A DNA stretch of 64,000 nucleotides. Source: Clostridiales bacterium (lineage in GTDB: Bacteria > Bacillota > Clostridia > Lachnospirales > Lachnospiraceae). The notes under the pieces were generated by a model. The model worked only from the letters and a program-made list of their open reading frames with translations. It did no database searches and was not told the origin of the DNA. A program made the translations under genes and the position numbers. Of this stretch, positions 1,062 to 11,972 are shown piece by piece. The first letter of the stretch is position 1; each line of letters starts with the position of its first letter. The stretch is from positions 90,050 to 154,049 of the forward strand of contig JAJQIK010000036.1 of NCBI GenBank assembly GCA_021199255.1, given 5' to 3'.

Positions 1062-2417
1062 TCAAATCAAACTTTCATGATCAAACAGCCATGAAATCAA
1101 AAAATCTCTCATATCCTCCAGCGTGTTTTGATAACACACAAGCTGATGCCCAATTTTCGCCTTAATCTGTTCCTGATGAAATAGGGTATACTCTAAGGCA
1201 CTTTTAAGCTCCGAAGCCAATTCCTTATCATCTGCGTGCAGCAGCTGATGCTCGCACAGCTTCATTTCCTCCATGATATTGTCCAAGCGCTCGTCCATCG
1301 AGATTGCCACGCTGGGTACCCTTGCATCCATAGACAGCACTTGTGCATGATACCTTGATGTAATCAGAAGGGACATCTTCCGTAATACAGCCGCCATCTC
1401 ATAGCCGTCATGGTCGGAGGACAAAAAGACAGCTGCCGGTCTTGCAAGCTTTGCGTTCAGCTTGTTACAGGCATCCGCATCCAGACGCTCCATTCCAAGT
1501 ATGACGACATGACAAGAATACTTTTTTGTAAATTCATTCACTGACAGAGCGATAGCATCCAAATAATCCTCAAATTGCCGTTCCTGCCGTTTTGACCAGC
1601 TAAAAAAATACCACAGCTGAAATTGCAGGGAATGATCCCCTGTAACTCCTGCTTTCATCCACTTCGCCAGCGAAGGTCTGACCGGCCACCAAAAAGGATT
1701 GATTGGCGCAATACCAAGAAGCGGCGAAGTGCCATCCCAGCCGGATTCACGAAGCTGCGTGGCAGCCCACTCCATATGAGAGGAACTGTCAAATTTCCAT
1801 GCGGTATCCGTTCCCAAATGACCTTTTAGCCCCAACCGTTGAATCTGCTCCAGCGAGTTTTTTGTTCTGGCGATAAAATAAGTATCTGAACAGAGCCGTT
1901 TCACAGTGCGTTCCAAAAATGCGTCCATCTCACCGGCTTCTGAGCCATAGGCAATGCAAGTCTTGTGCTGATTTTTCATAATTCCAGCCGCCTCGCAAAA
2001 ATATAAGGTAAGGGCATTGGCAAATTTGCTTTTGAGCGTAGAACCCTCACACAATATTACGGCATGATTCGCACAGCAAGCCCGAAATACATCCACAAAA
2101 AAGATGGAGCTAAACGGAACGAGCCGGATATCAGAATCAAAATAGCAACAGATATTTTCTTCATCCAGCGTCATGACGGAAATCTGTGCTTTCTCTTTTC
2201 CGAAACATCCCTGAAGCTGCTTTGCTATTTCAGCTACCCGCACGTCTGCGCCGGTATTTCTGGCTCCATTATAGCCTACCAACAAAATATGCAGTTTCGA
2301 TTCCCTCTCTAAATTTCTGAAGTCCCTATATTCTACAAAACCAAGCTTAGCGAAAACAGGGGCAAACCGAGATAAGAAAACGAAGCATTTTACAAGAATA
2401 TTGATAAAATAATCCAT
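1062..2417 (-). CDS. Polysaccharide pyruvyl transferase family protein
   Basis: A 451-residue protein of the polysaccharide pyruvyl transferase family (CsaB-like), which transfers pyruvate from phosphoenolpyruvate to sugars of cell-surface polymers. Visible signs are the N-terminal GYNGARNTGADVRV segment (around residues 48-61), which has the family's glycine/asparagine nucleotide-fold loop, the EGSTLKS segment near 122, and the C-terminal SRYHAQVLSM segment followed by a VPSVAIS strand (around residues 345-365), matching the family's xRxHA...A...P motif. The start has only a weak ribosome site and follows the flavodoxin stop by 15 bp, so translational coupling is likely. The actual acceptor cannot be told from sequence. 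Confidence 0.8.
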   Translation of the reverse strand: MDYFINILVKCFVFLSRFAPVFAKLGFVEYRDFRNLERESKLHILLVGYNGARNTGADVRVAEIAKQLQGCFGKEKAQISVMTLDEENICCYFDSDIRLVPFSSIFFVDVFRACCANHAVILCEGSTLKSKFANALTLYFCEAAGIMKNQHKTCIAYGSEAGEMDAFLERTVKRLCSDTYFIARTKNSLEQIQRLGLKGHLGTDTAWKFDSSSHMEWAATQLRESGWDGTSPLLGIAPINPFWWPVRPSLAKWMKAGVTGDHSLQFQLWYFFSWSKRQERQFEDYLDAIALSVNEFTKKYSCHVVILGMERLDADACNKLNAKLARPAAVFLSSDHDGYEMAAVLRKMSLLITSRYHAQVLSMDARVPSVAISMDERLDNIMEEMKLCEHQLLHADDKELASELKSALEYTLFHQEQIKAKIGHQLVCYQNTLEDMRDFLISWLFDHESLI

Positions 2418-2432
2418 AAGCGTATACTTGGC

Positions 2433-2861
2433 TTAATGAAGCTCCGCAATTATTTTCGTTGCGAATTGCCTTGCATCGTCCAAATCCTTACGGTTCGGGC
2501 GTCCCATATGCAGCGCAGTAAACTCTCCCCTGCAATAAAAATTCCTGCTGTCCACCTGAATACCGTGGCTCTGCAGCTTCTTTTGAATTTGAGGAAAAGC
2601 CCTTTCTGCCATTGCGGAGGTAGAGAAAACCACAACCTTGCCAATTTTATTCTTGTCCAAGGTCCGGATGTATTCCTTCACTTCGGAACAGATGCCGCCC
2701 CAGTAAACGGAAGCTCCCAGAAACAGAATGTCTACTTTGCCATCAATAGGCGCAGGTATCTGCTCCGCCTTACAGCCGACTGTGTTTGCAATCTCATCCG
2801 CCAGTTTTCTCGTATTTCCGGATTTAGAAAAGTAACGCACAGCTATATTTGTTTTTTGCAT
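2433..2861 (-). CDS. Flavodoxin family protein
   Basis: A 142-residue single-domain flavodoxin-fold protein, expected to bind FMN and act in one-electron transfer or as a small NAD(P)H-dependent reductase. The phosphate-binding loop is the SKSGNTRKLA segment near residue 13, and a GASVYWGG segment (around residue 48) provides the second FMN loop. The start at 2861 was chosen because GGAGG lies 8 bases before it; an upstream TTG at 2876 is possible but overlaps that ribosome site. It is the first gene of the leftward operon with the pyruvyl transferase and SDR, and is divergent from the HxlR gene, a common pairing of redox flavoproteins with HxlR regulators. Confidence 0.85.
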   Translation of the reverse strand: MQKTNIAVRYFSKSGNTRKLADEIANTVGCKAEQIPAPIDGKVDILFLGASVYWGGICSEVKEYIRTLDKNKIGKVVVFSTSAMAERAFPQIQKKLQSHGIQVDSRNFYCRGEFTALHMGRPNRKDLDDARQFATKIIAELH

Positions 2862-2943
2862 TGTAAGTTCCTCCAATCATGTTAGTATGAATTTTTTCAT
2901 TTCAGCACTCTTAAAAATTGCTTTACTCTTAATTTGTTATCTG

Positions 2944-2959
2944 CTATAATTCATTATAG
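2944..2959. promoter_or_regulatory. Palindromic operator candidate for the HxlR regulator
   Basis: A perfect inverted repeat, CTATAAT-TC-ATTATAG, sits in the divergent intergenic space. It covers the -10 box of the leftward promoter and also offers a TATAAT for the rightward gene, with TTTACT 17 bp upstream at 2922-2927. Binding here could block both genes, as expected for an autoregulated HxlR repressor. The assignment to HxlR rests on position only. Confidence 0.5.
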
Positions 2960-2981
2960 TTATAGAGTAAGTCTAAGTCAA
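2953..2981 (-). promoter_or_regulatory. Sigma-A promoter of the flavodoxin operon
   Basis: On the minus strand, TTGACT (2981-2976) and TATAAT (2958-2953) are separated by 17 bp, a near-consensus housekeeping promoter pointing into the flavodoxin gene. Its -10 box is half of the palindrome at 2944-2959. Confidence 0.75.
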
Positions 2982-3037
2982 TTACACAGTTTTTGCGGAG
3001 TAGGTAAGAAAAAACAGACTTGCAAGGAGGAAATGAA

Positions 3038-3364
3038 ATGGCAAATGAGCATATTTGTCCCTGCACTGTGGGATGCCCTTTACAGAAGGTAATGAATGCG
3101 TTAGGCGGAAGGTGGAAAATGTCTATTTTATGTTCACTGTCAAACGACGGCTCCACCAGATACAATGACATCAAGCGGAAAATGGGCAATATCTCCAACA
3201 CCATGCTTGCGAAATCCTTAAAAGAGCTTGAGGAAGATGGGCTTGTAAAAAGGACAGAATATGTAGAGGTTCCGATTCGCGTTGAGTATGAAATAACGGA
3301 TTCAGTCCGCTCCTTGATTCCGATTTTGACCGAGCTTGCCGTGTGGGGAAGCAATTTGAAATGA
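3038..3364 (+). CDS. HxlR-family winged-helix transcriptional regulator
   Basis: A 108-residue HxlR-type DNA-binding protein. The typical core WKMSILCSL...RYNDIKRKM...ISNTMLAKSLKELEEDGLV is followed by a beta wing and YEITDSVRSLIPIL. Three cysteines lie at the N-terminus (CPCTVGCP, residues about 6-13), so redox or electrophile sensing is plausible, as in several characterised HxlR proteins. The ATG at 3038 has AAGGAGG seven bases upstream; an in-frame TTG at 3020 would put the ribosome site inside the gene. It is divergent from the flavodoxin operon and probably controls it. Confidence 0.9.
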   Translation: MANEHICPCTVGCPLQKVMNALGGRWKMSILCSLSNDGSTRYNDIKRKMGNISNTMLAKSLKELEEDGLVKRTEYVEVPIRVEYEITDSVRSLIPILTELAVWGSNLK

Positions 3365-3544
3365 TAACAATTCAGTAGCTTTACACGGGCTATATTGATA
3401 ATTAACTCACAGTATATCAACTTTATATAGCTTTATGCTTAAGAAGATAGCGCACACATTTCCCGTTTCTTTTACAACAAGCTTGGTATATTGATCACGA
3501 TTTGACATGAGTTCTCTTATATGACATATAATTCAATCGACTAA

Positions 3545-3585
3545 AAAGGCTCTGCATATCATACACAGAGCCTTTCTAAGCTTTT
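3545..3585. terminator. Terminator-like hairpin
   Basis: AAAGGCTCTG (3545-3554) pairs perfectly with CAGAGCCTTT (3566-3575) around an 11-base loop, followed after a few bases by CTTTTT. It could end transcripts from either side, but lies 180 bp after the HxlR stop. Confidence 0.55.
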
Positions 3586-3625
3586 TATCCACTACATAGT
3601 GTATTTTCTGTCTATAAAATTCATT

Positions 3626-3790
3626 TTACAGAATTATACCCGCCTTTTTCGCAAAGTAATCTTTTTTCCCGACAAGCTCCGACTGTTTTTCCTTTGGCAG
3701 AATATTGAATACTTCATCATAGACAATATCATCTAATTGTATTTGCAACGATTGCAGCGCCCCTGTTTGATTAATTAATAAAAAAGAAAG
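3626..3790 (-). pseudogene. Possible C-terminal remnant of an unidentified gene
   Basis: Reading the minus strand toward a TAA at 3628-3626 gives about 50 codons without a stop and a protein-like, charged and amphipathic end (for example LDDIVYDEVFNILPKEKQ and GKKDYFAKKAG). No start codon or ribosome site was found upstream, and the open stretch runs into the lipoprotein leader. It may be the tail of a gene lost by deletion. I do not recognise the family, and an open frame this short can occur by chance. Confidence 0.25.
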
Positions 3791-3804
3791 AGTGGAAAAG
3801 AAAA

Positions 3805-4770
3805 ATGAAAAAAGCAGTATTGTTATGCCTGCCGGTTCTTATGATTTTGGGCGGCTGCGCAAACCGGAGCGCGAATACAGAAGATGTAAGCAGTGAACAG
3901 GAAGAAATACTTATTACAGACAGTGACGCCGGACTGGAATCCGAACAGGAAGCCGGGAGTGAAGCGCAGCAGGAAGCTGGGACGGAAGCGGAAGCGGCGG
4001 AGGAAGAGGGAATTTTCGCCGTGCTGCCGAAGGAATTTCATTTTTCCGGCGGAGCCGGAGGCTGGGGAACGGAATTGTTTTTGGAAGCCGACGGGACTTT
4101 CTGGGGCGTATACCATGATTTGGATATGGGGGCGACGGGCGAGGAATATCTCGATGGAACACAGTATATCAGCAGATTTCATGGCAAATTTACAGAGCCT
4201 GTGCAGAAAACGGATTATATCTATTCCACTGCGATCGAATCGATAGAGGTTGAATATATTGAGGACGGCGTAAAATATATTGTGAGCGAACCCTACGGGC
4301 TGAGCGGCGCGGACGAGATTTTATTGTATTTATATGGGATTCCTGCGTTAGAACTGCCGGACGGTTTCCTTTCGTGGATATCGATGGCTGAAGTGGCAGG
4401 GGATACTTTGGGATTATACGGAATTTATAATGTGAATGAAGAAACCGTATTCACAGGGGTGAAGTATGAAGAGATTTCAGAATTATATAATCATGGAACC
4501 TATGTGAATGAATTGGGAGATCAATTGACAATAAGATTGGCGGGAGCAATAGACGAGGATTCGTATGAATTGGGGAGAGTGGATTGGATTCCTCATGACG
4601 GGGAGCTGCAGGATGGAACCATTACCAGGAATGGCATGGGCGGTTTTAGCATCAATCTGCCTGAATCCATGTCGTATAGCTTTAAAATGACAAATTATGA
4701 ACTGGGCAGGATAGAGTTTGTGGGCGATGGCGAGTGGTCTGAACATTTGGGGACGTTTGTGATGCAATAG
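3805..4770 (+). CDS. Predicted lipoprotein of unknown function
   Basis: A 321-residue protein with a lipoprotein signal: MKKA start, hydrophobic run VLLCLPVLMIL, then the lipobox LGGC with the lipidated cysteine at residue 19. It is therefore expected on the outer face of the membrane. An acidic Glu/Ala/Ser-rich linker (residues about 25-70) leads to a folded domain of roughly 250 residues, rich in tyrosine and beta-type segments and repeating ELGR (ELGRVDW, ELGRIEF). Similar lipoproteins are common in gut Clostridia without assigned function. It stands alone: the next gene has its own promoter. Confidence 0.75.
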   Translation: MKKAVLLCLPVLMILGGCANRSANTEDVSSEQEEILITDSDAGLESEQEAGSEAQQEAGTEAEAAEEEGIFAVLPKEFHFSGGAGGWGTELFLEADGTFWGVYHDLDMGATGEEYLDGTQYISRFHGKFTEPVQKTDYIYSTAIESIEVEYIEDGVKYIVSEPYGLSGADEILLYLYGIPALELPDGFLSWISMAEVAGDTLGLYGIYNVNEETVFTGVKYEEISELYNHGTYVNELGDQLTIRLAGAIDEDSYELGRVDWIPHDGELQDGTITRNGMGGFSINLPESMSYSFKMTNYELGRIEFVGDGEWSEHLGTFVMQ

Positions 4771-4819
4771 AATAGCTGAGCTGCTTTTATACGCTGCGCT
4801 ATCCCTCTGCGCAGTCCGA

Positions 4820-4848
4820 TTGACTTTTTACATTATCTCCTGTACAAT
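4820..4848 (+). promoter_or_regulatory. Sigma-A promoter of the signalling operon
   Basis: TTGACT (4820-4825) and TACAAT (4843-4848) with a 17-bp spacer lie about 70 bp before the CheY-like gene, and nothing else of this quality is seen before the four-gene operon. Confidence 0.7.
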
Positions 4849-4915
4849 AATTTGTAGTATATTTTTGATTGAAAGACTGACTTGATAGCAGAGGTTGACA
4901 GGGAGCAATAAGAAA

Positions 4916-5278
4916 ATGAAGAAAATTTTGGTTGTGGACGATACTTTTATCAGCCGGGCGACGGCGGAACGTATTTTAAGGGAGCAGTACTCCGTCCTGA
5001 TGGCGGACAGCGGCCAGGCGTGCCTTTCCATTCTTGCAAAAGAGCAGGTAGATCTGGTACTGCTGGATATGGAGATGCCGATTATGAACGGCATCGAAAC
5101 GCTGACTCAGATACGGAGACTTCCAGGCGGCAAAAACCTTCCCGTCATCATGGTAACGGGCAACGACGACAGAGAAACGGTTGTTGCGGCGGTAGAACTG
5201 TCGATAGAGGATTATTTGGTTAAGCCGTATATGCCGGAGGATTTGTTGCGCCGTGTGAGAAAGTGTATTCAGGGATAA
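4916..5278 (+). CDS. Single-domain response regulator (CheY-like)
   Basis: A 120-residue receiver domain with no output domain. The acidic pocket is ILVVDD near the N-terminus, the phospho-acceptor aspartate lies in LVLLDMEMP, and the conserved lysine is in YLVKPY near residue 104. Such a protein passes phosphate or binds a target rather than DNA. The ATG at 4916 follows a GGGAG site; an in-frame TTG at 4895 is less likely. It opens an operon with an HD-GYP regulator and two hybrid kinases, so its phosphate probably comes from one of these kinases. Confidence 0.9.
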   Translation: MKKILVVDDTFISRATAERILREQYSVLMADSGQACLSILAKEQVDLVLLDMEMPIMNGIETLTQIRRLPGGKNLPVIMVTGNDDRETVVAAVELSIEDYLVKPYMPEDLLRRVRKCIQG

Positions 5279-5324
5279 TCGCAGTCCCTGCAGCGGGCAA
5301 TGATTTTTACGGAAGGGATCTTTT

Positions 5325-6350
5325 ATGAGCGACTGGATATTAGTGGTGGACGATAGTGCGTCGAACTTAAAAATGGCAAGCCATATACTGACGGAAGCGG
5401 GAATGAGGGTCAGTTGCCTGAAATCAGGCGGGGAAGCCTTGAAATTTCTGGAGCATAACAGGCCGGACGTTATTCTTCTGGACATTCATATGCAGGGAAT
5501 GGACGGTTTTGAAACGATGGCGGCTATTCGGAGTAAGGAGAATCTGGCGGATATCCCGGTGATTTTCCTTACGGCGGACGAGGATAGCGAGACGGAGACG
5601 AAGGGATTACAGAGCGGCGCTGTGGATTTTATCAGAAAGCCTTTTGTGTCGGAGGTGCTTTTGACCAGAATCCGGCACACCATCGATCTGATGCGCCTCC
5701 AGACCAGCTTGTCCCGGGAGGTGGATAAGAAGACGCAGGAGATCGCGCGGCAGCAGGCCAAAATTGAGATGCTGTTTGTGGAGGTCGTCAATGCGCTGGC
5801 GGGCGCGATCGACGCCAAGGATTCCTATACCAAAGGACATTCCGCAAGGGTGGCGGATTATTCGCGGAAAATCGCCGCGCGTCTGGGATTGTCGGACGAG
5901 GCGCAGGGCGATATCTATATTATGGGGCTTCTGCACGACGTGGGCAAAATCGGTATTCCTGACAGCATTATCAATAAACCGGATAGCCTGACGGAGGAGG
6001 AATATGCGGTGGTTAAGAGGCACCCTGTGATGGGCTCGGATATATTGGGGAAAATTACGGAGTTCCCCCGGTTGGCAACCGGGGCGAAATGGCATCATGA
6101 GCGTTATGACGGGAAGGGGTATCCCGACGGTATTTCCGGCGAAGAGATACCGATGGAAGCGCGGATTATCGCGGTTGCGGACGCTTACGATACCATGAGC
6201 TCCAAGAGAAGTTATCGGGATGTGCTGCCTCAGGGCGTAGTGCGGGAGGAAATTGCCAGGGGAAGGGGAACACAGTTTGACCCGGTGTTTACGGACGTGA
6301 TGCTGGCTTTGATCGATGAAGACACGGCATATGAAATGCGGGAAAAATAG
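5325..6350 (+). CDS. Response regulator with HD-GYP c-di-GMP phosphodiesterase domain
   Basis: A 341-residue REC/HD-GYP protein. Residues 1-120 are a receiver domain (ILVVDD, phospho-acceptor in ILLDIHMQG, lysine in FIRKPF); a short coiled linker follows; residues about 150-335 form an HD-GYP domain with HDVGKIG (H204, D205), HHERYDGKGYPDG (GYP at 265-267) and the DAYDTM segment. All main metal and signature residues are present, so it should hydrolyse cyclic di-GMP under phosphorylation control. It is 46 bp after the CheY-like gene and 27 bp before the first kinase. This suits control of the motile-to-sessile switch next to a flagellar cluster. Confidence 0.93.
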   Translation: MSDWILVVDDSASNLKMASHILTEAGMRVSCLKSGGEALKFLEHNRPDVILLDIHMQGMDGFETMAAIRSKENLADIPVIFLTADEDSETETKGLQSGAVDFIRKPFVSEVLLTRIRHTIDLMRLQTSLSREVDKKTQEIARQQAKIEMLFVEVVNALAGAIDAKDSYTKGHSARVADYSRKIAARLGLSDEAQGDIYIMGLLHDVGKIGIPDSIINKPDSLTEEEYAVVKRHPVMGSDILGKITEFPRLATGAKWHHERYDGKGYPDGISGEEIPMEARIIAVADAYDTMSSKRSYRDVLPQGVVREEIARGRGTQFDPVFTDVMLALIDEDTAYEMREK

Positions 6351-6377
6351 GAGTCCTTTGAAAAACGGAGGGGTTAT

Positions 6378-9245
6378 ATGGGCGAAAGAGTAAATAAGCG
6401 TTCCGGGCATCTTCAGATATTGATCTGTTATACCATTATGGAAACCGCGTTAATTTTGGAAGGTCTGCTTCTGGGCTGGGATATGTCTGCGGCGATGCTG
6501 CTTCTGGTTGGCCTGATGGCAAGCTGGGCGATTTATGTCACGGAGAAGCTGGAGGCGGAGATAAGCCTGTGGCTGTATTTTATCCTGATGATGCTGGCTT
6601 TTTTCTATTACGGAATGCATGCGACGAGCCTTTATGATCTGGCGCCCACGATGGCTACGATTATCCTGCTGATGTCAGGTACGGGCAAGCGGATTCTGGT
6701 AAGGCTGTGTACCGTCACTTATTTTGTGACCATGATTTACGGCCTGCTGTTTGTGGCGGGAGATACCATAGAGATGGATTCCCTTACCGTTACAAGGACG
6801 ATGCTCCACTTCGCCCTTGTATGTATTGCGGACTGGCTGGTCAAGGCGCAGCAGCGGGAACGCGCGGGGCTGCAAAGGGATATGGACGCCAAGGTGTCTG
6901 AATTGGAGGAGAGCAATCACAAAATCGAGAATTTCCTTGTCAATGTTTCCCATGAGCTGCGCACGCCCATTAACGCGATTATGGGTCTTACGTCGGTTAT
7001 GCTGGATAGGGAAAGGGACGCGTCGAAAAGGCGGGAGGTGTTGTCTATCCAGAAAGCGGGGCACCGCCTGTTCGACCAGATTGAAGATATCCTTGACTAT
7101 ACGGAAATCGACACGGGAAGCATCCAAATCAACAATGCGGATTATATGATTTCCTCTGTGATAAACGATATTGTGATAGGGGAGCGGTCACGGGAGCACG
7201 GTAACTATCCGGAGATTATTTTTGACGTGGATCCTGGTATCCCCGCCAGACTTGTAGGCGACGGCCGCAAAATCAAGAAAATCGTAAAGCATTTGATCGA
7301 CAACGCGGTGAAGTTTACGCCCCAGGGCGCGGTTTTGGTGGAAATATCGGGGCGGCGCCGGGAATATGGCGTGAATCTGTGCATCCGGGTAACGGATACG
7401 GGAATCGGCATCAGGGAAGAAGATATTAAAAAGCTTTCGGGGCAATTTTATCAGTTGAACGGGGAGAGAAACAGGAACGCCAGCGGGCTGGGACTGGGTC
7501 TTTCTATTGTGTATGGAATCGTTTCGGCGATGGGCGGCTTTGTTAAGATCGAGAGCCGGGAAAACGAGGGCACGGTTGTATCTGTCAGCATCCCGCAGGG
7601 CGTGTCGGACGAAGCGCGCGGTATGTCGGTGGATCATCCCGGAGAGCTGTGTATTGCCTGTTATTTAAAGCCGGAGAAATATGCGTCGCCCAAGGTATTT
7701 CAGTTCTATGATAATATGATTTCCCATATGGCGCAGGGGCTGAGTATTCCTTTGCACAGGGCGGGGAACGAGGCGGAGCTGGAACGCGTTCTTGCCAGGT
7801 ACCGCGTTACGCATTTGTTTATCGGCAAAGAGGAGTATCTGGACAGACCCTCCTATTATGAGAGCCTGTGGCGGGAAACCAGCGTGGTGACAGTGACGGA
7901 CGACGTGGGCGCGCTTCCTGCGGACAGCCATGTAACCGCGCTGGAAAAGCCTTTCTATTTCCTGCCGATTATTGACATTCTGAATCAAAGCGGCGCGGCG
8001 CACGTCGGCTTGTTCGATACGCGCAGATTCCTCTGCCCCGGCGTTAAGGCGCTGATTGTGGACGACGAGCCGATGAACCTGATGGTAGCGGAGGAACTTC
8101 TGAAATCCTATCAGATGCGGGTCTGGACGGCCGACAGCGGCAGAAAGGCCGTCGATATCTGCATGGAGGAAGAGTTTGACCTGATTTTCCTGGATCATAT
8201 GATGCCCGAAATGGACGGGGTTGAGACCTTGAAGCTGCTTCGCAGAAGGAGCGGCGCGGGAAAGAAGGAACCCAATAACAAGATGACCGTTATCGCCTTT
8301 ACCGCAAATGCGGTAAGCGGCGCAAGAGAAATGTTCCTGCGGGAGGGCTTTGATGAATTTCTTTCGAAGCCGATTGAAAGGCTCGAACTGGATCGCGTAT
8401 TAAAGAAGGTGCTTCCGGGAACGGCTATTGTTTATCCGCCTGAGGAGGAATTGCCGTCAGATGGACAATCGTCGGAAGACGTACTGGGTTTGCCGGAGAG
8501 TAAGCCGGAGCCAACCCCTCAGCAGGACGCGGCCGGTGAAAATAAGCCGCCGGAGGGAAAGGAAGAGGCGCCGGAGGCGGAGAGCGAATTGGCGTTTCTT
8601 CAGGACGCCGGAATCAATACCTCGTCCGGCTTAATGTATTGCGCGGGAGATCAGGACTTTTATAAGACGATGCTGGCCAGCTTTGCGGAGAGCGCCCCTC
8701 GGAATACGGCGGATATGCGGGGCTTCCTGCAAAGCGGGGATTGGGACAATTACCGGGTTCTGGTGCACGCTTTAAAAAGTACCGCCAAAATGATCGGGGC
8801 GGACGCGCTTTCCGCAATGGCAAAGGCGGCGGAGGACGCGGCTAAGAAATCGGACGCGGACTATATCACAGCGCATGAGGGGGAACTTATGGCGCAATAT
8901 AGCCAGACTGTACAGGCCATAGCGGACGCGCTTCATCTGGCTGAGAGTCAGGGCGGCGGGGATCAGGCGGAGGATAGCCCGACGCAAACTCCGGCGGAGG
9001 ATTTCCGGGAATTGACGGGGGAGGAATGGAAAAGCCGCCTGCTGGAGTTGAAGGAATGTCTTGATCTGTTTGAGGCGGACAGGGCGGATAGCCTGATTGC
9101 GGAAATAAGAGGCGCGGTATACGGCGGCAGAAAAGTGGAAGCGATTCTTGCCGGGGTCATTCGGGACGTGGAGGATTTTGAATTTTCGGCTGCTTCTGAG
9201 AAAACAGGGGAGCTGATCGGCACATTGGAAGGCGGTGATGCATAG
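6378..9245 (+). CDS. Membrane hybrid histidine kinase (HisKA-HATPase-REC-Hpt)
   Basis: A 955-residue phosphorelay kinase. Five or six membrane segments fill residues about 12-155. The dimerisation/phospho-acceptor helix is SHELRTP with H192. The ATPase domain shows DNAVKF, DTGIGI and GLGLGLSIV. After a less conserved region (about 420-550) comes a receiver domain (VDDEPMNLMVAEE; phospho-acceptor D606 in LDHMMPEMDG; KPIERLEL). A long acidic/proline linker precedes an Hpt domain with H797 in VHALKSTA. The C-terminal 120 residues are unassigned. The stop directly abuts the next gene's ATG, implying coupling. Hpt can relay phosphate to the free receivers encoded upstream. Confidence 0.92.
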   Translation: MGERVNKRSGHLQILICYTIMETALILEGLLLGWDMSAAMLLLVGLMASWAIYVTEKLEAEISLWLYFILMMLAFFYYGMHATSLYDLAPTMATIILLMSGTGKRILVRLCTVTYFVTMIYGLLFVAGDTIEMDSLTVTRTMLHFALVCIADWLVKAQQRERAGLQRDMDAKVSELEESNHKIENFLVNVSHELRTPINAIMGLTSVMLDRERDASKRREVLSIQKAGHRLFDQIEDILDYTEIDTGSIQINNADYMISSVINDIVIGERSREHGNYPEIIFDVDPGIPARLVGDGRKIKKIVKHLIDNAVKFTPQGAVLVEISGRRREYGVNLCIRVTDTGIGIREEDIKKLSGQFYQLNGERNRNASGLGLGLSIVYGIVSAMGGFVKIESRENEGTVVSVSIPQGVSDEARGMSVDHPGELCIACYLKPEKYASPKVFQFYDNMISHMAQGLSIPLHRAGNEAELERVLARYRVTHLFIGKEEYLDRPSYYESLWRETSVVTVTDDVGALPADSHVTALEKPFYFLPIIDILNQSGAAHVGLFDTRRFLCPGVKALIVDDEPMNLMVAEELLKSYQMRVWTADSGRKAVDICMEEEFDLIFLDHMMPEMDGVETLKLLRRRSGAGKKEPNNKMTVIAFTANAVSGAREMFLREGFDEFLSKPIERLELDRVLKKVLPGTAIVYPPEEELPSDGQSSEDVLGLPESKPEPTPQQDAAGENKPPEGKEEAPEAESELAFLQDAGINTSSGLMYCAGDQDFYKTMLASFAESAPRNTADMRGFLQSGDWDNYRVLVHALKSTAKMIGADALSAMAKAAEDAAKKSDADYITAHEGELMAQYSQTVQAIADALHLAESQGGGDQAEDSPTQTPAEDFRELTGEEWKSRLLELKECLDLFEADRADSLIAEIRGAVYGGRKVEAILAGVIRDVEDFEFSAASEKTGELIGTLEGGDA

Positions 9246-11972
9246 ATGAATCTGAAGAATTTCTGGAAGGATATCATGAACCGCGAGCTGAGCTTACAGG
9301 TGAGAATGTTCCGGCTTTTTACAACGCTGGCTTTAGCCGGCTTTGGCATCGGAATTTTGGGCGCGTCTGCGGCGGGCGAGGATCTGCTCACTTTAATCCT
9401 GCCGATGGTCGTCCTGTTTTTCCTGCTTTTGGGCATCACGCAATGGACGGTCAAATACAATAAAATACAGGCAGGAGCGGTTATCATAGCGTTCTTTGTT
9501 GTGTATGTGGCCTTGCCGATTAACTTTTTTAATGCGGGAGGCGTTTTGAGCGGAGGCCCTATCTGGTTTCTGTTTGGCGTCATGTATGTCTGTATGAATG
9601 TATATGGCCGAGTGAAATATTTTTTCCTGGGAAGCTGCGCGGCCATATTTACCGGCTGTTATTATATGGCTTATTTTTATCCGGAGACGATTTCCGAGTA
9701 TACGCAGGACGCGCTGTTTGTGGATTCGGCGATTTCACTGTCTGTCATCAGCGTGCTGTTAGCTGTGATGATCTTATTCCAAAATGCTATCTACCGTTCG
9801 GAAAACAGCCTTGCCAGACAGCAGAAAAGGGAGATCGAAGAACTGAATCGAGCCCAGAACCGCTTCTTTTCCACCATGAGCCATGAGATTCGGACGCCAA
9901 TTAATACCATTATCGGCCTCAACGAGATGATTCTGCGCGAGGATATCCCGGACGAGGTAGCGGAGGACGCCAGGAATATTCAGGGTGCCAGCAAAATGCT
10001 GCTTGCCCTGATCAACGATATTCTCGATATGTCTAAGATAGAATCGGGCAGCATGGATATCGTGCCGGTGGATTATGACCTGGGGGAGATGCTGTCGGAT
10101 CTTGTGAATATGATCTGGGTGAAGGCCAGGGAGAAAGGGCTTGCGTTCCATGTGAATGTAGATCAGAGGGCTCCCGCCCGGCTCTACGGGGACGAGGTGA
10201 GAATCAAGCAGGTGCTGATTAACCTCCTGAATAATGCAGTTAAATATACGGCGGAGGGTTCGGTCACCCTGTCGATTCAATGTGAGAAGACGCAGGAGGG
10301 CAGCGTCAATATGGTTTATTCCGTAGCGGATACGGGTATGGGAATTAAAAAGGAGAGCCTGCCCTATCTTTTTACGGCTTTCAAACGTGTAGATGAAGAA
10401 AAAAACAGATACATCGAGGGCACCGGACTGGGGCTTTCCATTGTGAAACAACTGGTAGAGCTTATGGGAGGCACTGTTTCTGTCAACAGTATTTACACGA
10501 AAGGCTCTACCTTTGTGATTACCCTGCCTCAAGGCGTTTCAGGTTTGTCGCAGATCGGGAAGTTTGATCTGGAAGGCAAGCACGACATGAACCGCAGGGA
10601 GCATTACAGGCAGAGCTTTGAAGCGCCGGAGGCGCGTATCCTGATCGTAGATGACAATGAGATGAACCTTATGGTTGCCGGAAAGCTTCTGCGGGACACC
10701 AGGGTACAGATCAAGACCGTCACAAGCGGAGCCGCCTGCCTGCAGGAGACGGCGCGTACAAAGTATGACGTGATTTTTATGGATCACATGATGCCGGAAA
10801 TGGACGGTATCGAATGTCTGCACAGGATACGGAAACAAACAGAGGAGTTGAACGGACATACGCCGGTGGTCGTCCTGACTGCCAATGCGGGCGGGGAAAA
10901 CCGTATTCTTTATGAGCGGGCAGGTTTCGACGGCTACCTCTTAAAGCCTGTCAGCGGCAAACAGATGGAGATGGAGCTGCTGCGGCAGCTTCCCAAAGAG
11001 CTTGTGAGTATCAGGTATCACGAAGATGCCGGAACTCCCGAAGAACTGTTGTTTGTGCATAATGCAAAGCTTCCTGTTATGATTTCGACAGACAGTGTCT
11101 GCGATCTGCCGGCGGAGCTGGCGGAACAGTATCGGATTGTTGTAATGCCTTACCATGTCTATACGGAAGAAGGAGATTTCATGGAGGGAATCGAAGTGGA
11201 AACGGACGGCCTGATGTCCTATATCGGCGACAGGGGGAGAAAGGCACATTCGGAACCGCCGAAGATATCCGAATATGAAGACTTCTTTGCGGATAACCTG
11301 ACGAAAGCGAGACATATGATTCATATTTCCATGGGCAAACGGTCAAGCCGCGGCTATGCCAACGCGTGCGAAGCCGCCGAGACCTTTGATAACGTACAGG
11401 TGATCGATTCGGGGCATCTGTCCAGCGGAATGGGGCTGATTGTGCTGCGCACGGCGGAATATGCCGCGGAGGGCAGTCATACGCCGGAGGAAATCGCAGA
11501 TTTCGCGCAAAGCCTGGCAAAGAGAACCGTCACAACCTTTATGGTGGAAGATACGGAATATCTTGTCCGTTCCGGCAGACTGTCGCCCAGAGTGAGTAAG
11601 CTGTGTAAGGCGCTGACGATTTATCCTAAGCTTGGCATGCGGAACAGCAAAATTACCCTTGCGGGGATTCTGGCAGGCTCCAGGGAGAGCAGATGGAAGA
11701 ATTATATCGACGGCGTTTTGCGCCATGCAGGCGGCATCGATACAAGGCTGCTCTTCATCACCCATGTGGGTCTGACGCCGGAGGAACTGCGGGAAATAGA
11801 AAAGGAAGCGCTGCGGAAAGCGCCTTTTGAAGAGGTGATCTATTGTCAGGCCACCGCCGCCATTGCCACGAATTGCGGGCCGGGCGCCTTCGGACTGCTT
11901 TTCATGAGAAGTGCCGGGGGGGGGGTAACGAGGATTGACGGTGAGGACTCAAGGAAAGCGCTATTTGTGTAG
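9246..11972 (+). CDS. Membrane hybrid histidine kinase fused to a DegV domain
   Basis: A 908-residue fusion. Residues about 20-185 hold six membrane segments without a recognisable extracellular domain. HisKA follows with H213 in MSHEIRTP, then the ATPase domain (NNAVKY, DTGMGI, GTGLGLSIV), a receiver domain (VDDNEMNLMVAGK; D513 in MDHMMPEMDG; LLKPVSG), and from about residue 609 a full-length DegV domain of roughly 296 residues (VMISTDSVCDLPAELAEQY, VMPYHVY, SGHLSSGMG, VEDTEYLVRSGRL, CGPGAFGL). DegV proteins bind a fatty acid and, in Firmicutes, serve as FakB subunits presenting it for phosphorylation. The join suggests sensing or delivery of a lipid within a phosphorelay. A G10 tract lies near the 3' end. 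Last gene of the operon. Confidence 0.9.
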   Translation: MNLKNFWKDIMNRELSLQVRMFRLFTTLALAGFGIGILGASAAGEDLLTLILPMVVLFFLLLGITQWTVKYNKIQAGAVIIAFFVVYVALPINFFNAGGVLSGGPIWFLFGVMYVCMNVYGRVKYFFLGSCAAIFTGCYYMAYFYPETISEYTQDALFVDSAISLSVISVLLAVMILFQNAIYRSENSLARQQKREIEELNRAQNRFFSTMSHEIRTPINTIIGLNEMILREDIPDEVAEDARNIQGASKMLLALINDILDMSKIESGSMDIVPVDYDLGEMLSDLVNMIWVKAREKGLAFHVNVDQRAPARLYGDEVRIKQVLINLLNNAVKYTAEGSVTLSIQCEKTQEGSVNMVYSVADTGMGIKKESLPYLFTAFKRVDEEKNRYIEGTGLGLSIVKQLVELMGGTVSVNSIYTKGSTFVITLPQGVSGLSQIGKFDLEGKHDMNRREHYRQSFEAPEARILIVDDNEMNLMVAGKLLRDTRVQIKTVTSGAACLQETARTKYDVIFMDHMMPEMDGIECLHRIRKQTEELNGHTPVVVLTANAGGENRILYERAGFDGYLLKPVSGKQMEMELLRQLPKELVSIRYHEDAGTPEELLFVHNAKLPVMISTDSVCDLPAELAEQYRIVVMPYHVYTEEGDFMEGIEVETDGLMSYIGDRGRKAHSEPPKISEYEDFFADNLTKARHMIHISMGKRSSRGYANACEAAETFDNVQVIDSGHLSSGMGLIVLRTAEYAAEGSHTPEEIADFAQSLAKRTVTTFMVEDTEYLVRSGRLSPRVSKLCKALTIYPKLGMRNSKITLAGILAGSRESRWKNYIDGVLRHAGGIDTRLLFITHVGLTPEELREIEKEALRKAPFEEVIYCQATAAIATNCGPGAFGLLFMRSAGGGVTRIDGEDSRKALFV
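11916..11925 (+). repeat. G10 homopolymer inside the kinase-DegV gene
   Basis: Ten consecutive G fall near codons 891-894, coding for glycines in the last strand of the DegV domain. In the present length the reading frame is intact to the stop at 11972. A tract of this length is prone to slippage, and a one-base change would alter only the last 15 or so residues. Confidence 0.9.

Follow-up and report, generated by a model that had tools for sequence, protein, structure and literature searches.

Proteins of the DegV/FakB family bind fatty acids, and the residues involved have been described for FakB1 of Staphylococcus aureus. According to the accessible text of PMC8892158 and PMC9136124, Thr62, Ser95, Ser171 and His270 of FakB1 form a hydrogen-bond network with the carboxylate of the fatty acid, Arg173 is required for phosphorylation by the fatty acid kinase FakA, and Arg205 contacts FakA and the membrane, with the helix α8' entering the bilayer. 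Another group of described systems, the multistep phosphorelays of hybrid histidine kinases, is made up of HisKA, HATPase, receiver (REC) and a single Hpt domain, and feeds response regulators of the REC-HD-GYP or REC-GGDEF type, enzymes of cyclic di-guanosine monophosphate (c-di-GMP), encoded in the operon. In the current analysis we have characterised a hybrid histidine kinase with a DegV domain that is encoded in a stretch of 64,000 nucleotides (the window) from a Lachnospiraceae genome (contig JAJQIK010000036.1). Its operon has all the components of such a phosphorelay and differs in the added DegV domain and in the location of Hpt on either of two proteins. From the FakB/DegV proteins compared (S. 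aureus FakB1, 5uto/6mh9/7scl; B. subtilis DegV 3fys; 1pzx; 2dt8) the domain differs in its position within or adjoining a kinase pair, in the replacement of His270 by Asn, in the loss of Arg205 and in a charged membrane helix. DhaQ of L. lactis, a co-activator with the DhaK fold, acts on a transcription regulator and is not known to act on a histidine kinase.

The gene (9246..11972, forward strand) is a single stop-free open reading frame (ORF) of 908 residues. An N-terminal six-helix membrane domain (9246..9818), with the fold of the six-transmembrane (6TM) domains of class III adenylyl cyclases, is followed by HisKA (residues 203-268, 9852..10049) with the phospho-acceptor H213, HATPase_c (residues 315-429, 10188..10532), a receiver (Response_reg, residues 465-574, 10638..10967) with D513 and the DegV domain (PF02645, residues 612-887, 11079..11906). 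All four Pfam domains score well over cut-off, DegV with an E-value of 4.7e-42 and 144.7 bits against a cut-off of 27, and the HisKA histidine, the HATPase and the receiver aspartate place the protein among the hybrid histidine kinases. The initial annotation of this DNA had read the same domains in one frame, with DegV at residues 609-905, and is confirmed. Modelled with its relatives the DegV domain reaches a predicted local distance difference test score of 96.6 and has the DegV/FakB fatty-acid-binding proteins as its closest solved structures; the full-length profile match and the fold assign it to the DegV/EDD fold family. A chance match to DegV has been rejected on the Pfam score and these fold neighbours. 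A frameshift or misassembly at the REC-DegV junction, raised as a possible source of error, has also been rejected, since at least 58 frames in at least 45 other genomes carry the domain.

We give a probability of about 0.5 to the reading that the genes of this operon make up a multistep phosphorelay of two kinases which controls c-di-GMP enzymes, in the present case the REC-HD-GYP phosphodiesterase. The DegV domain of such a relay would be a fatty-acid-binding protein of the FakB type that has been taken up as a regulatory sensor and no longer serves FakA. The reading is built on what was computed, namely the domains, the conservation of the kinase pair, the limit of one Hpt per pair, the output genes in the neighbourhood, the single branch of the fused DegVs, their changed residues and the 6TM fold. 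From these we infer the path of the phosphoryl group, which would pass from the kinase histidines to their own receivers, then to the single Hpt of the pair (in the 955-residue partner here) and on to the free receiver and the REC-HD-GYP protein. The DegV domain would be an input, binding in the cytosol a lipid-like ligand, presumably a fatty acid or a relative of one, and would bias the kinase/phosphatase state of the pair in a direction that we also infer, and the 6TM domain would read a membrane or lipid signal.

The partner is a hybrid kinase of 955 residues (6378..9245, forward strand; membrane domain-HisKA-HATPase-inter-domain segment-REC-Hpt by Pfam), and the base after its stop codon is the first base of the DegV-kinase gene. 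A search of 299 genomes from the same family with the DegV domain has identified at least 58 more open frames of 700 residues or longer that match it, in at least 45 genomes; these and two matches in shorter frames make up the 60 loci examined (L037-L096). In 51 of the 60 the gene immediately 5', in the same orientation, encodes a complete partner-type kinase, the others being contig ends (L039, L040, L050, L066, L095), split partner ORFs (L037, L092) and partner-type fusions (L081, L090). Partners were identified by best match to the 955-residue protein (in 53 of 60 loci, counting fragments) and by the inter-domain segment (matching 54 ORFs of the 60 loci), as the kinase profile used for labelling them also matches the fusions. 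The Hpt is found in the partner only in 39 of the 51 pairs, in the DegV protein only in 10, in neither in two and in both in none; the two pairs lacking it have a separate Hpt ORF nearby (downstream in L094, upstream in L056). This complementary placement, with never two Hpt domains in a pair, favours a single relay that is made up of both proteins and has one Hpt. Three genomes (L146, L149, L150) lack a fused second kinase and have DegV as a gene of its own immediately 3' of a partner-type kinase, so that DegV follows the partner and not the kinase that usually carries the fusion. These separate-gene forms make the partnership of DegV and kinase testable with two proteins.

A linked DegV is encoded in at least 51 of the 299 genomes, comprising the 46 in which the 60 loci lie, the window's own genome, and G274, G174, G044 and G266, with G174 showing REC-DegV alone at a contig end. 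Most of the 60 loci have the order membrane-HK-REC-DegV, where HK is the histidine kinase part, and an H-box is present in 56 ORFs; of the four without one, L081 and L090 have no HisKA, L095 is cut and L096 lacks the kinase part. Nine fusions of full pairs, as well as L066 at a contig end, have an added C-terminal Hpt and lengths of about 1110-1150 residues. The DegV domain is N-terminal in L056, whose fusion ORF is interrupted by the contig end, and L096 is DegV-Hpt. The position of DegV at the output end, as proposed initially, thus holds as the commonest arrangement and fails as a rule, given also the separate genes. In a tree of 110 DegVs all 67 rows labelled as fused, which include L096 and L103 (a contig end where fusion is not seen), lie on one side of a branch with support of 100/95, recovered in all of 200 bootstrap trees; several rows, free as well as fused, are long-branched. 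The next row beyond the fused side is L106, a separate-gene form adjoining its partner kinase (L146).

The FakB1 positions were mapped by profile alignment with 6mh9 and verified by a joint MAFFT alignment including 6mh9. The profile alignment had paired R205 with a conserved Gly; it was moved by one column using the KYRG motif of the free DegVs, with which the joint alignment agreed. T62, S95, S171, R173, R205 and H270 of FakB1 correspond to S669, S701, S776, R778, A810 and N876 in the window. The carboxylate network is incomplete, all three hydroxyl positions being Ser and the histidine Asn, and the residue docking to FakA and the membrane is lost, while the arginine of R173 is present. As two defining features of FakB are absent, we do not class the protein as a FakB but as a variant within the hybrid kinase phosphorelays. 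A loss of both T62 and S95, suggested by pairwise alignments, has been rejected, since profile alignment with FakB1 gives Ser at the two positions.

The same positions were compared between 61 linked DegVs, the window included, and 43 free DegVs, 20 of which are same-family proteins picked by hand from the family search. Left out were G039 and G114, with canonical residues, and G044, G064:C77, G274 and G174, which belong to the Asn type and map within or beside kinase or receiver genes; the free set includes L106. The T62 column is S in 42 and T in nine linked sequences, whereas it is T in 42 of the free. S95 is Ser in 36/61 linked and 42/43 free, R173 is Arg in 28/61 and 43/43, and H270 is Asn in 55/61 linked against His in 41/43 free. 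R205 is Arg in 2/61 linked sequences and in 40/43 free by joint alignment with FakB1 (38/43 by profile column 205). The S171 column does not discriminate, because it is Gly in 41/43 free DegVs and variable in the linked. Across five positions of the membrane-inserting helix α8', 47/61 linked DegVs have one or more charged residues, against 1/43 free ones. L106 is of the Asn type, stands next out in the tree and lies beside the partner kinase, and the residue change therefore tracks membership of the kinase operon and not fusion itself.

With its usual site for the enzyme partner FakA lost, the DegV domain probably senses rather than delivers lipids, and its FakB descent and retained hydroxyl site make a lipid the likely ligand. 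The initial annotation had suggested a fatty-acid-responsive or fatty-acid-delivering sensor. The responsive part is plausible, given the intact fold, S669 and S701 and a membrane domain that models as the 6TM domain of Rv1625c; the delivering part is opposed by the loss of R205, the replacement of H270 by Asn, the retention of R173 in fewer than half of the linked domains and the charged helix. The same residues make it very improbable that the domain is a working FakB that hands fatty acid to FakA under the control of receiver phosphorylation, even though the R173 required for FakA catalysis is present in the window protein and fakA, absent from the window according to the initial annotation, is found once in the genome. 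That genome has five DegVs, four of which are free-standing and available for delivery, one of them near fakA; it also encodes flhA and has 16 GGDEF matches.

Two other roles are serious rivals of lipid sensing. FakA has a DegV-like C-terminal domain to which FakB docks, and the linked DegV could similarly be a protein-docking module joining the two kinases, or a kinase and a regulator; we consider this somewhat unlikely, as the T62 hydroxyl, retained in 51/61, and a DegV fold complete at high confidence have no obvious use in a mere scaffold. Less probable again is the sensing of a different small ligand by a head-group site that has been remodelled, the ligand being for instance a lipid intermediate or another amphipathic carboxylate. 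Profile columns 262, 265, 271 and 277 do change together between the free and linked sets (T in 36 free against Q in 45 linked, G in 36 against S in 58, H in 41 against N in 55 and L in 36 against F in 46), with Gln, Ser and Asn replacing Thr, Gly and His, but such changes could be neutral once the FakA-related constraint had gone.

Several observations weigh against a lipid-sensing relay with an abandoned FakA site. An Arg within three columns of R205 is present in 20/61 linked DegVs (R812 in the window) and may provide an alternative docking, and R205 is likewise missing from L003, one of the free DegVs in the window's genome. The incomplete retention of S95 has been noted above, and the change of His270 to Asn with the charged helix could amount to a total loss of fatty acid binding or exchange. 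The 6TM assignment depends on fold, and in 9/51 loci the gene that precedes the partner is unrelated. The window's genome also encodes, in L157, a paralogous pair with REC-HD-GYP and no DegV, so that such relays can exist without DegV. This operon (C12:69000-80000, locus 2329-8279) encodes REC-HD-GYP (358 residues), a kinase with transmembrane, HK and REC parts (714 residues) and another with an added Hpt (944 residues); it has the same type of membrane domain and serves as a natural control.

The membrane domain of the 908-residue kinase models as the adenylyl-cyclase 6TM fold, including that of Rv1625c, with which it shares 10% identity; the Foldseek match taken by itself is weak (E 0.11). 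The closest described 6TM systems are the class III adenylyl cyclases (Rv1625c/Cya), with which the fold was compared, and the hybrid kinases of the CqsS type; CqsS is not known to have a DegV domain. The membrane domains of partner and fusion compare with an hhalign probability of 26%. C18 monounsaturated fatty acids are reported to inhibit Rv1625c via its membrane domain (PMC12505454, in its accessible part). We tentatively suggest, with less confidence than for the relay itself, a class of phosphorelays with dual lipid sensing, not described before, in which a 6TM lipid receptor and a FakB-type carrier stripped of its docking sites for FakA and membrane, one at each end of one kinase, would jointly set c-di-GMP, motility and chemotaxis in Lachnospiraceae.

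The genes upstream of the partner in the 51 pairs encode REC, HD-GYP or GGDEF proteins in 31, a methyl-accepting chemotaxis protein (MCP) and then CheW in eight and other products in nine, with two contig ends and one gene on the opposite strand. One of the 31 (L073) has a third hybrid kinase with REC-GGDEF beyond, and in five of the nine other loci REC or REC-GGDEF lies directly downstream (L065, L076, L084, L087, L096). Examples by Pfam include REC-GGDEF-REC-HD-GYP (L080), REC-GGDEF (L072) and CheA-CheW-MCP (L079). A match to flhA (PF00771, E 1e-30 or better) occurs in at least 44 of the 51 genomes with a linked DegV and in at least 109 of the 248 without (odds ratio 8.0, Fisher's p 2e-8, statistics that ignore relatedness). 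Among the seven genomes without a match, G174 has a fragment and was counted as lacking. REC-GGDEF adjoins the pair in four flhA-less genomes (L060, L062, L071, L149) and REC-HD-GYP in one (L063), and c-di-GMP rather than the flagellum therefore looks like the direct output. The link to c-di-GMP made initially is thus supported by the neighbouring genes in many genomes, and that to the flagellum by co-occurrence, which is a correlation. The subgroup behind CheW-MCP genes (L079, L085, L082, L086, L075, L074, L091, L093; CheA by Pfam in L079) suggests a chemotaxis-coupled branch.

If the proposed relay is correct, DegV/FakB proteins would gain a kinase-integrated signalling role, one of the fates of DegV paralogues in Bacillota would find an explanation, and a lipid would be a concrete input for a c-di-GMP and motility circuit in a large gut family. 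In the literature covered, with most subscription papers and all bioRxiv preprints outside its scope, none was found joining DegV and c-di-GMP, a fusion of "DegV domain" and response regulator, or DegV with Lachnospiraceae and histidine kinase. Searches for DegV with histidine kinase, sensor kinase with fatty acid, and hybrid histidine kinase returned no paper that looked to concern such a kinase, judging by the listings and by the accessible parts of PMC12688256 and PMC9912610. In the FpsR study, as far as its accessible text goes, DegV is encoded by its own gene, which was tested for an effect on motility, and another gene is named as responsible (PMC12688256).

Beyond the family, 398 phylum-wide genomes, few of them of the own family, gave three listed matches in frames of at least 700 residues, all of the own family, and a 580-residue frame (G367). 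Nine loci of named relatives are contigs of metagenome-assembled genomes labelled as Lachnospiraceae, other Clostridia, Erysipelotrichaceae and Atopobiaceae, two of them (L104, L105) with unlinked canonical DegVs. The kinase pair is seen on such contigs labelled Oscillospiraceae, Clostridium and Atopobiaceae (L098, L099, L102), where the bin labels may be wrong; the full pair of L102 (29-5277), binned as Atopobiaceae (Actinomycetota), reflects transfer or mis-binning. The closest relative (L037, G196) has near 9890-10191 a C-terminal extension with unknown bases and then a long proline run, which looks like an assembly flaw. In L081 (7249-9837) and L090 (7225-9837) there is no match to HisKA, and DegV is joined directly to a membrane domain of the partner type with an ATPase; these are possible pseudokinase versions. 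In L090 two GGDEF proteins are encoded downstream of the fusion.

The operon of the window also encodes on the forward strand a free receiver protein (4895..5278, Response_reg E 4.7e-29) and the REC-HD-GYP response regulator, a predicted c-di-GMP phosphodiesterase (5325..6350, Response_reg 5.7e-29, HD_5 6.2e-36), which with the Hpt of the partner would complete a multistep phosphorelay. A weak promoter-like site, TTGACT-17-TACAAT (4820..4848, forward strand), lies 5' of the operon with 10/12 matches in a consensus scan; the operon region has eight such sites against a mean of 7.5 in shuffled sequences, and thus no enrichment. The segment of the partner between HATPase and REC (7602-8057, residues 409-560) has no Pfam match and is possibly a degenerate receiver.
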